NCBI RefSeq assembly: GCF_005960665.1
Contig: NZ_CP040676.1
Coordinates: 1,002,501-1,066,500 of the forward strand
Direction of reading: 5' to 3'
From: Exiguobacterium mexicanum
Lineage (GTDB): Bacteria; Bacillota; Bacilli; Exiguobacteriales; Exiguobacteriaceae
Length of the DNA: 64,000 nt
The notes under the pieces are model-generated. The model ran no database searches. It saw nothing but the letters and a program-made list of their open reading frames with translations, and was not told the origin of the DNA. Below, one piece after another: positions 49,477 through 53,369 of the stretch. Within the stretch, counting starts at the first letter, position 1, and each line of letters opens with the position of its first letter. The translations under genes were made by a program, and so were the position numbers.

Positions 49477-51393
49477 ATGAAGTCATCTCAGAGCTTTTCG
49501 AAGCTTACTATGCGACTGAATGATACGGTCCGCGCTTCGTTTCAAGAATATCGGTTATTTTGGATTTTCACGCTATTACTTTGGACGAAGACGTACGTAG
49601 TTTACCAATTTTTCTTCAATATCCCGATTGAAAACACCGCCCAGGCATTCATCTTGCTGATCAGCCCGATCAGCTCCACACTTTTCTTATTCGCTTTCAG
49701 TTTCTTCTTTAAAGGAAATAAGCAGAAGTGGGTATTGTACATGCTCTATGCCGCGGCGTCATTCATCTTGTTCGCTGACGCCGTCTATTACCGCGAGTTC
49801 ACCGACTACTTGACAATGCCGGTCATCTTGCAACCTTCGAACATGGAGACGTTGTCGACCTCGTTCACCTCATTGTTGGAATGGAAGGACTTGATCATCC
49901 TCGGGGATGTGCTCGCCTTGCCGTTCATCTTACGACGCATCAATGCGAAGGCGACGGCGGCCTCTCATCAGAGAGCGCTCGTGACGTTCGCAACAGCGGT
50001 CGTCGTTTTCTTGTTCAACTTATCGCTCGCCGAAACGGAACGCCCTGAACTATTGACACGTTCGTTCGACCGGGAGCTGTTGGTCAAAAATATTGGGACG
50101 TTCAACTTCCACGTCTATGACGCGATGCTTCAAACGAAGACATCGGCCCAGAAAGCGATGGCCGATGGATCGGAACTGGCGAAAGTTGAGCAATATACCC
50201 GTCAACATTACGCGGCACCGAACCCGGACTACTTCGGGAAATATAAAGGCAAAAATGTGATCGTCGTCTCGTTCGAGTCGGCCCAAAACTTCACGCACAA
50301 CATGAAGGCCTCGAACGGCGAATACATCACGCCGAACTTGAACAAATTGATCGAAGAGTCACACTACTGGCCGAATTATTACCATACGGTCGGACAAGGG
50401 AAGACGTCAGACGCCGAGTTCGCACTCGATAACTCGCTCTACGGCCTCCCGCGCGGTGCCGTCTACTTCACGAACGCCGACAACGAGTATCAGGCGCTTC
50501 CTGAATTGATCAAGGAAGACAACTACTACTCGGCCGTGTTCCACGCCAACAACAAGTCGTTCTGGAACCGGGACTTGATGTATAAAAATATCGGTGTCGA
50601 TCAATTCTTCGACGAGAAAAGTTATGACCTCGGGAACCCCGAGGATATGACGGAGTGGGGACTTCTCGACGACAGTTTCTTCGAACAGTCGATCCCGATG
50701 CTCGAAGAGTTGCCGGAGCCGTTCTACGCGAAGTTCATCACGCTCACGAACCACTTCCCGTACACGATGCCGAGCGAAGACTATGAGCTCGTCCCGAAAT
50801 TCGAGACGAACTCGACGACGCTCAACAACTTCCCGCAGGCACTCGCGTATCAGGATTACGCGCTCGGGTTGTTCATCGATGAGTTGAAGGCGAACGGTAT
50901 GTGGGATGACACGATCTTCGTCGTCTACGGTGACCATTACGGCATCTCGACGAACCATAACGACGCGATGGCCGACCTGCTCGGGAAAGACGAGTTGACG
51001 CCATACGACGTCGCCAAGCTCCAAGCGGTCCCGTTCGCGGTCCACTTACCGGGACAAGCCAAGGGCGAAGTACATGACACGATCGGCAGTCATGTCGACA
51101 TGAAACCGACGATCCTTCACTTGCTCGGAATCGACACGTCGGACACGGTCGGATTCGGTAGCGACTTGTTATCGGAAGACCGGACGAGCCGCGCCATCTT
51201 CCGTGACGGCACCGTTATCACTGAGGAGTATGTCTGGACGCAATCGACATGCTATGACGCCTCGAGTGGTGAAGTCGTTGAGGACGTTTCACTTTGTGGA
51301 CCGGATAGTGAAGAAGCAGAGAAGATTCTCCAAATGAATGATGACTTGATTTATTCGGATCTGCTTCGTTTTAAAGAACAGACCGAACAGTAA
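49477..51393 (+). CDS. ltaS: Lipoteichoic acid synthase
   Basis: Polymerises glycerol phosphate from phosphatidylglycerol onto the glycolipid anchor outside the membrane. Five N-terminal helices (about residues 25-200) are followed by a linker and an extracellular sulfatase-like domain (about residues 255-600). NVIVVSFESAQNF contains the metal-binding Glu, GQGKTSDAEF the threonine nucleophile, and VYGDHYGIS the C-terminal metal-binding Asp and His. The start is the ATG at 49477 after GAGGAGGAGG; the frame open from 49453 has no site. The 638 residues are typical. A DUF-like linker cut site cannot be assigned with certainty. Confidence 0.94.
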   Translation: MKSSQSFSKLTMRLNDTVRASFQEYRLFWIFTLLLWTKTYVVYQFFFNIPIENTAQAFILLISPISSTLFLFAFSFFFKGNKQKWVLYMLYAAASFILFADAVYYREFTDYLTMPVILQPSNMETLSTSFTSLLEWKDLIILGDVLALPFILRRINAKATAASHQRALVTFATAVVVFLFNLSLAETERPELLTRSFDRELLVKNIGTFNFHVYDAMLQTKTSAQKAMADGSELAKVEQYTRQHYAAPNPDYFGKYKGKNVIVVSFESAQNFTHNMKASNGEYITPNLNKLIEESHYWPNYYHTVGQGKTSDAEFALDNSLYGLPRGAVYFTNADNEYQALPELIKEDNYYSAVFHANNKSFWNRDLMYKNIGVDQFFDEKSYDLGNPEDMTEWGLLDDSFFEQSIPMLEELPEPFYAKFITLTNHFPYTMPSEDYELVPKFETNSTTLNNFPQALAYQDYALGLFIDELKANGMWDDTIFVVYGDHYGISTNHNDAMADLLGKDELTPYDVAKLQAVPFAVHLPGQAKGEVHDTIGSHVDMKPTILHLLGIDTSDTVGFGSDLLSEDRTSRAIFRDGTVITEEYVWTQSTCYDASSGEVVEDVSLCGPDSEEAEKILQMNDDLIYSDLLRFKEQTEQ

Positions 51394-52436: not shown

Positions 52437-52472
52437 AAAAAAGATTGTCTCACGAGGAGACAATCTTTTTTT
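52437..52472. terminator. Bidirectional terminator between yqgX and yqgY
   Basis: GATTGTCTC / GAGACAATC (52443-52465) with A- and T-tracts outside, between convergent genes. Confidence 0.88.
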
Positions 52473-52734
52473 ACATTTGGAAGTTACTCCAATACGTGAA
52501 GACGACGAAGAAGACAGTCAAATATGCGCCGAACACGTATACATACGTTTTTTCAGTGAGTTTCAAGTAGCCTAGTGCGACGAAGAAAATAGTTTGAGCT
52601 AAAAAGACAAGACCCATTACGACGAAGTCACCACTATGTTCGCTACTGCTTTGATCTCCACCGAGTGCGCCTACGAAAGCAAGCGCCGCGATCAACCCAG
52701 TCCAAAAGCCTAGGACACGGAACATTCTCGCCAT
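52471..52734 (-). CDS. yqgY: YqgY-like small membrane protein (DUF2626)
   Basis: An 87-residue membrane protein, three predicted helices, starting MARMFRVLGFWTG and ending with a VYVFGAYLTVFFVVFTYW-type helix, the pattern of the DUF2626/YqgY family. Function unknown. The loop after helix 1 contains GGDQSSSEHSGD, which may be an insertion relative to the shorter Bacillus protein. The ATG is read from 52734, with GGGGGG upstream. Its neighbours (yqgX, and yqgZ/mgsR divergent) are the same as in B. subtilis. Confidence 0.82.
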   Translation of the reverse strand: MARMFRVLGFWTGLIAALAFVGALGGDQSSSEHSGDFVVMGLVFLAQTIFFVALGYLKLTEKTYVYVFGAYLTVFFVVFTYWSNFQM

Positions 52735-52858
52735 GTTAATCCCCCCATACGTGCATTATTCCATTCTCATTCACTATTTTACCAACACATTCAGAAAAAT
52801 GCTATGGAAACGTGTGAATTGAGCAAAATAATCGTGAAAAATATGTGAAATAATTAGG

Positions 52859-52930
52859 TTGCACAAACTTGTACAAAAAATTAAAAAACTTGTACAAACT
52901 ATGTACAAAACGGGTATAAGGTTGTATAAT
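52859..52930 (+). promoter_or_regulatory. Promoter with four helically phased TTGTACAA-type boxes
   Basis: TTGCACAA (52859), TTGTACAA (52869), TTGTACAA (52890) and ATGTACAA (52901) start at offsets 0, 10, 31 and 42, all close to multiples of 10.5 bp. The last box supplies a -35 (TGTACA, 52902-52907), 17 bases before a perfect TATAAT (52925-52930). This looks like a cooperative operator for an unknown regulator. Confidence 0.65.
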
Positions 52931-52982
52931 CGATTTACACACATCGAACGAATTGGTTCTCAACTTCAAAGGAGGTATTAAA

Positions 52983-53369
52983 ATGGCAAATGAATTGATG
53001 TTCTATACGTATCCGAGCTGTACCTCATGCCGTAAGACGAAAGCGTTTTTACAAGAGCAACACCTCGAGGTGAGCGAGCGCCATATCTTCCGGAACGCCC
53101 CGACGGTAGATGAGTTGATGACGCTGTTAGCGCTCAGTGAAAACGGTGTCGACTCGCTTCTTGCGACGAGAAGTCAGGCGTTCAAACAACTCGACATCGA
53201 CGTCGAAGATTTGAAGCTAAGTGAATTGCTCAAATTGATGAGCGACAACCCGAAACTATTGAAACGTCCAATCTTGACGGATGGCAACGAAGTCATTGTC
53301 GGCTATGACAAAGCGACAATCGAGGCGTATGCCCGTCGTTTCGAATCAACAACTGCAAACGTATCCTGA
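52983..53369 (+). CDS. mgsR: Spx/MgsR-like ArsC-family transcriptional regulator
   Basis: Small thioredoxin-fold protein that in this family binds the RNA polymerase alpha subunit and redirects transcription in stress. The redox switch CxxC is YPSCTSCRK (C13 and C16), and the C-terminal half contains LLKRPILTDGNEVIVGYDK, the ArsC/Spx signature. In B. subtilis the equivalent gene yqgZ (mgsR) also follows yqgY. The ATG at 52983 has AAAGGAGG upstream. It is 128 residues long, normal for the family. The promoter has phased repeats (52859-52908), suggesting strong control. It could alternatively be an Spx paralogue. Confidence 0.82.
   Translation: MANELMFYTYPSCTSCRKTKAFLQEQHLEVSERHIFRNAPTVDELMTLLALSENGVDSLLATRSQAFKQLDIDVEDLKLSELLKLMSDNPKLLKRPILTDGNEVIVGYDKATIEAYARRFESTTANVS

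Follow-up and report, generated by a model that had tools for sequence, protein, structure and literature searches.

The gene for an Spx/MgsR-family regulator of Exiguobacterium mexicanum is preceded by an array of boxes that are real and conserved. The array is likely an operator of the CarH/LitR type, made up of four 11-bp repeats, the last of which is the -35 element of a sigma-A-type promoter, with the CarH-like protein of the genome as its regulator. A first-pass annotation of the window (the whole stretch of DNA analysed, 64,000 nucleotides) had proposed a helically phased operator upstream of this gene for a dimeric regulator that it could not name. The phased operator is supported, and its spacing is kept in relatives. 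The dimer site gives way to 11-bp direct repeats like those that CarH oligomers bind, for which a candidate regulator can now be proposed. Given the repeats, their conservation and a CarH-like gene in each genome searched, the regulator left unnamed is probably, to judge by these sequence data, the CarH-like protein. The repeats, the -35 register, the conservation, the genomic rarity, the CarH-like gene in each searched genome and the layout at a carotenoid operon are all computed results.

The array and its promoter

All four boxes, at offsets 0, 10, 31 and 42, were found where the annotation had placed them (Table 1). The overlap of the last box with a -35 element, followed 17 bp later by TATAAT, is likewise confirmed in the sequence. 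A fifth box, TTGTATAA, with one mismatch, overlaps the -10 element (52922-52929), so that the 210-bp region around the promoter holds five boxes. Among 100,000 first-order Markov copies of this region, 62 had at least four boxes and 4 had four boxes within 50 bp. As a control that weighs against the box cluster, octamers with at most one mismatch are enriched throughout the window (38 against 16.4 expected). Exact TTGTACAA occurs 24 times in the genome, against 39 for the reversed control. A search for box pairs, as the annotation had advised, gave a single TTGTACAA pair 11 bp apart with at most two mismatches in the genome, at this promoter; the reversed control also gave one. The octamer is palindromic, and a palindromic dimer site was considered and rejected. 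Direct repeats are favoured because of the 11-bp period and because, in all 29 rows compared, the TGTACA of DR3 has an A three bases ahead of it.

Table 1. Features of the promoter region and the candidate regulator gene (window positions unless a contig is given)
Feature	Position	Strand	Remarks
Box A, TTGCACAA	52859-52866	+	10 bp ahead of next box; weakly conserved
DR1 (direct repeat 1)	52866-52876	+	box TTGTACAA at 52869-52876; TGTACA core 52870-52875
dr2, degenerate A/T-rich repeat	52877-52886	+	here 1 base short of 11
DR3 (direct repeat 3)	52887-52897	+	box TTGTACAA at 52890-52897; TGTACA core 52891-52896
DR4 (direct repeat 4)	52898-52908	+	box ATGTACAA at 52901-52908; includes -35 TGTACA 52902-52907
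GGGTAT, possible SigB -10	52912-52917	+	13/19 clade-1, 0/10 clade-2 rows
-10 element TATAAT	52925-52930	+	17 bp after TGTACA 52902-52907; predicted transcription start near 52937
Ribosome-binding site AAGGAGG	52969-52975	+	from sequence
Spx/MgsR-family regulator gene	52983-53369	+	128 aa, CxxC; TIGR01617 112.4 bits (cut-off 75.05); PF03960
Divergent DUF2626 gene	52471-52734	-	PF11117, 96.9 bits
CarH-like MerR/B12 gene	G000:C4:1522202-1523056	-	single in genome; outside window; 285 aa

The downstream gene belongs to the Spx/MgsR family by its TIGR01617 score and by C-T-S-C in its translation, and the protein shares up to 99% identity with named proteins of Exiguobacterium. The gene order is a metallo-hydrolase-like gene, the DUF2626 gene, the Spx/MgsR-family gene and then genes that by eye are comG-like, an arrangement that we take to resemble the yqgX-yqgY-mgsR-comG order of B. 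subtilis. According to the available excerpts, B. subtilis mgsR is SigB dependent and positively autoregulated, and MgsR controls some 70 genes.

Conservation among relatives

The gene was found in 19/19 genomes of the genus and at 18 named loci. Eight of the named loci are identical upstream to genus rows, which leaves 29 distinct rows, 19 from clade 1 and 10 from its sister clade, clade 2. The clade-1 layout is a box, an A/T-rich gap and two boxes (DR1-dr2-DR3-DR4), and that of clade 2 is an A/T-rich stretch followed by three boxes (dr1-DR2-DR3-DR4). The second position holds a full TnnACA in 0/19 clade-1 and 10/10 clade-2 rows. Both DR3 and DR4 hold one, 11 bp apart, in 29/29 rows, and every row has TTGTACAA, or a form of it with one base changed, 11 bp ahead of the -35 repeat. 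The A at repeat position 2 is kept in 29/29 rows at DR3 and in 16/29 at DR4. In all 19 clade-1 rows, the TTGTACAA of DR1 precedes the last box by 32 or 33 bp; the 11-bp register is strict in 14 rows and shifted by one base in the remaining five, among them E. mexicanum. Box spacing in relatives had been named as a check on the annotation. It is conserved, but in 14/19 congeners boxes 2 and 3 are 22 bp apart (2 x 11) instead of 21 bp. Box A is present as TTGnACAA in 9/19 clade-1 rows.

Judged as a CarH/LitR operator, the array has two full tandem repeats in 29/29 rows and, in 24/29 (14/19 and 10/10 in the two clades), a third that is full and in register; it overlaps the promoter of its target, with DR4 at the -35 in 29/29. 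This -35 reads TGTACA across the rows, with TATACA in one (L021) and TTGACA in 0/29. A spacer of 17 bp, or of 18 bp in two rows (L016 and L017), leads to the -10, which is TATAAT in clade 1 and TATAGT or TATATT in clade 2. Conservation within clade 1 is 98-99% for the last two boxes and 71% for the spacer; the 59% of the first box comes from columns that are not realigned for the 21/22-bp gap. The clade-2 rows are nearly alike (upstream block 96%, spacer 76%) and contribute little on their own.

Two further elements lie at the edges of the array. The block TGAATTGAGCAAAATAATCGTGAAAAATATGTGAA (52813-52850), right upstream of the boxes, is strongly conserved in clade 1 and may be part of the divergent DUF2626 promoter. 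A dyad-like TGTATAA-N5-TTAYACA (52923-52941) covers the -10 and the transcription start in several clade-1 species.

Rarity within the genus

Across the 19 genus genomes, TTGTACAA-N3-TTGTACAA pairs with at most two mismatches number 50, against 29 for the reversed control. At least one such pair lies within this promoter in 19/19 genomes, and 9/9 clade-2 genomes searched have a box pair. A profile of the last two boxes, made from sequence only, was also searched, with 150 first-look candidates scored per genome. The promoter is the top match in 18/19 genomes (E up to 0.0144), and the best match elsewhere has E 0.185. The profile match is absent in G027, though the pair search found the array of that genome. 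Since the profile was made from these promoters, their high scores arise by construction, and the informative part of the search is the absence of other strong matches. A search for three exact tandem TnnACA repeats recovered the promoter in 8/8 clade-2 and 0/8 clade-1 genomes, the latter because of the gap in the array. Some other triple TnnACA matches resemble what we take to be DnaA boxes. Three TTTACA copies 11 bp apart occur in 8/8 clade-2 genomes searched; at the one locus looked at (L245:1501-1528), they lie between plsY-like and DeoR-type genes.

A general TTGTACAA regulon was rejected, as 19 of the 22 other genomic sites fall inside mechanically called frames of at least 80 aa; three (L083, L092 and L094) lie outside such frames, and one of the 19 (L091) may stand just before a true start. 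The sequence TTGTACAAAGARTTTACAA was also rejected as a second site. It recurs in 12/19 genus genomes and is taken as coding because its counterpart in the E. mexicanum genome (L004), the one genome looked at, sits in a 114-aa frame. In 7/19 genus genomes (L134, L135, L137-L141), an ltaS-like gene has TTGTACAA 71-81 bp upstream, as a TnnACA pair in six. This gene is possibly a second CarH-type target in one subclade, and the description of one strong target is therefore limited to the E. mexicanum genome, whose own ltaS-like gene (the homolog at window position 49477) has neither TTGTACAA nor a TnnACA pair upstream.

The CarH-like protein

A MerR protein with B12-binding domains is encoded once in each of 38/38 genomes of the family (E <= 1e-8). 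The E. mexicanum protein matches Thermus CarH (TtCarH, 5c8d) with E 5.7e-40 over residues 4-239, and both it and the protein at L205 carry MerR, B12-binding_2 and B12-binding domains. Its score against the curated CarH equivalog NF052513 is 172.9 bits, below the cut-off of 400, and it is therefore named CarH-like. Wx9EH and the cobalt-ligand His in ExHxxG are present in 30/30 rows examined (of 38 genomes). His132 of TtCarH, which serves the bis-His light state, is replaced by Glu in 30/30. The light signature described in the available text of PMC11796333 consists of GxxW, EH, GxxH and GxxxP. All four are found in the E. mexicanum protein; GxxW, EH and GxxxP (position assumed) are kept in 30/30 rows and GxxH in 7/30. 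Other proteins reported to respond to light have Arg, Gln or Tyr at position 132 (excerpts of PMC11796333). TtCarH H132A is mostly tetrameric in the light, where an earlier report had found disassembly (excerpts of PMC10442372).

By eye, no repeats were seen upstream of the E. mexicanum carH-like gene, which adjoins a RecQ-like frame (also by eye) and a MecA-family adaptor gene. The E. antarcticum counterpart, Eab7_1666, is described as a cobalamin-binding/MerR gene near recQ in a source whose available text does not mention MgsR or Spx (PMC6016940). In other genera (L291-L300, L302-L308), 16/17 CarH-like frames keep Wx9EH, the exception being L304, and a MecA-like start lies near the CarH-like gene in 15/17. 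TnnACA repeats stand just upstream of the gene at 3 of these 17 loci (L298, L299, L300); shuffles gave 0.03 matches per 14 kb.

The box pair elsewhere in the class

The exact pair, with a 10- or 11-bp period, occurs in 21/398 genomes of the class, 18 of them from this family; the reversed control occurs in one genome. One of the three pairs outside the family (L186) lies in a coding frame. Another (L184) has a carotenoid-biosynthesis gene on one side and a dehydrogenase gene on the other. The same place (L301, in genome G314) has the pair ahead of CruF, an acyltransferase, a glycosyltransferase and a CrtI-family desaturase, and the promoter of this carotenoid operon has TGTACA, 17 bp and TATAAT, the layout of the Exiguobacterium promoter. 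G314 also carries a CarH-like gene, whose product matches the E. mexicanum protein with E 9.5e-79. Such genes are common outside the family (89/360 genomes at E <= 1e-20, nearly all without the exact pair), and the presence of one in G314 is therefore weak evidence alone. The third pair (L185) flanks a distant CarH-like gene, whose MerR product has a B12-binding_2 domain. In G184, three repeats separate the distant CarH-like gene from the gene divergent to it. The G184 protein is without Wx9EH, has a B12-binding score under the Pfam cut-off and is outside the 127 genomes with a CarH-like match; its boxes are covered by a mechanically called frame.

The spxA2/mgsR-like promoters elsewhere in the class serve the same gene family with other elements. 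At 19 such loci outside the family (L104-L122), ACTATTGAC occurs within 260 bp upstream in 16 and the dyad ACTATTGACATAGT in 9, whereas the TGTACA array was found at none of the 19. Exiguobacterium thus seems to have swapped one control for another. The elements of these relatives resemble what we take to be the SaiR site of spxA2. Control by an Rrf2/SaiR protein was rejected for E. mexicanum, as the dyad of the relatives is absent at this promoter. The genome encodes three Rrf2 proteins over the cut-off, which by eye are NsrR-, YwnA- and CymR-like, and two more below it.

Alternative explanations

The CarH-like protein might bind the array but sense the adenosyl-B12 level or the redox state instead of light, or be constitutive. 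The Glu in place of His132 in 30/30 rows, the lack of GxxH in 23/30 and the mostly tetrameric state of TtCarH H132A in the light (PMC10442372, in the part available) all speak for this. The other motifs kept in every row, the full signature in the E. mexicanum protein and the substitutions at position 132 in proteins reported as light-responsive (excerpts of PMC11796333) speak against it, and we consider this reading unlikely. A SigB promoter at GGGTAT may overlap the array and add general-stress control in some species, a reading that is possible but somewhat unlikely. The annotation had offered this -10 together with a poor -35. In its favour, the 13 clade-1 rows that keep the motif have it at a constant distance to the -35 repeat while the adjacent spacer bases vary, and SigB dependence is described for B. 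subtilis mgsR in the excerpts available. Against it, the motif is absent from 6/19 clade-1 rows and from 10/10 clade-2 rows. The SigB -35 consensus is GTTTAA. The proposed GTACAA matches this at 4/6 positions, and the SigB pattern has 3 matches in the whole window against 2.06 expected.

The non-consensus -35, TTGACA in 0/29 rows, could instead point to an activator. Direct repeats of 11 bp that end in a poor -35 also presumably fit the geometry of an OmpR/PhoB-type response regulator. Such an activator is nevertheless improbable: clear profile matches occur at this promoter alone, unlike what we take to be the breadth of the Pho or Wal regulons, and elsewhere in the class the same sites precede a carotenoid operon in one genome and flank a CarH-like gene in another. 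The Spx/MgsR protein might also regulate its own gene together with the C-terminal domain of RNA polymerase alpha. Such autoregulation would suit the box at 52890-52897, which lies at -47 to -40, presumably about where Spx acts, and the positive autoregulation of mgsR given in the B. subtilis excerpts. It is very improbable, as the genome has no other clear profile match against the some 70 genes that the same excerpts assign to MgsR, and the array is absent from the 19 mgsR-like loci outside the family.

Proposed mechanism and implications

For the CarH-like protein as regulator, we infer binding, repression, B12 dependence and a light response at this promoter by analogy with known CarH systems. 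In the dark, an adenosyl-B12-loaded oligomer would lie on one face of the DNA, cover the repeats and the -35, and bar RNA polymerase from the promoter. Light would cleave the cobalt-carbon bond and release the oligomer, and the stress regulator would then be made. Judging from the sequences, light may thus switch on a stress regulator of Exiguobacterium directly. The array and the CarH-like gene are both family-wide, and therefore no absence tests their link. More tentatively, the B12 light sensor may have shifted from the control of carotenoid genes to that of a stress regulator of the Spx/MgsR type that binds RNA polymerase, with one strong target in the E. mexicanum genome, light as an advance cue for thiol/oxidative stress and no bis-His light state.

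If the proposal is true, light and vitamin B12 stand at the head of a stress response, and this suggests a role for the CarH-like gene that lies close to a MecA-like gene in other genera. It also bears on whether CarH-like proteins that lack His132 show a light response in vivo. A literature search for CarH, Spx and light together found no paper; subscription journals were mostly outside this search, and novelty is not established. A search for Exiguobacterium, Spx and promoter gave no title on this operator among the matches listed.

Comparison with known operators

In the available parts of PMC9304148 and PMC8156234, the CarH operator is described as tandem 11-bp direct repeats, nnnnTnnACAn or nAnnTnnACAn. 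T. thermophilus has three, one of them with the -35, and Bacillus megaterium has four, or three and a degenerate one. CarH/LitR proteins are described, in the excerpts available, as controlling carotenoid operons and other light-inducible genes. The Exiguobacterium array resembles the T. thermophilus and B. megaterium operators in its tandem nAnnTnnACAn repeats, three or four in number with one perhaps degenerate, lying over the -35. It differs from both in its target, an Spx/MgsR-family gene instead of a carotenoid operon, in its mostly TGTACA core and in the extra box 10 bp upstream in some clade-1 rows. The Class II LitR sites of Pseudomonas (PmlR2 and PplR1), as far as the available text describes them, are also TGTACA boxes over the -35, there of a light-controlled promoter. 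Their arrangement is TGTACA-N12-TGTACA, in contrast to the 11-bp period here, and the Class II LitR protein has one of the two B12 domains, whereas the Exiguobacterium protein has both.
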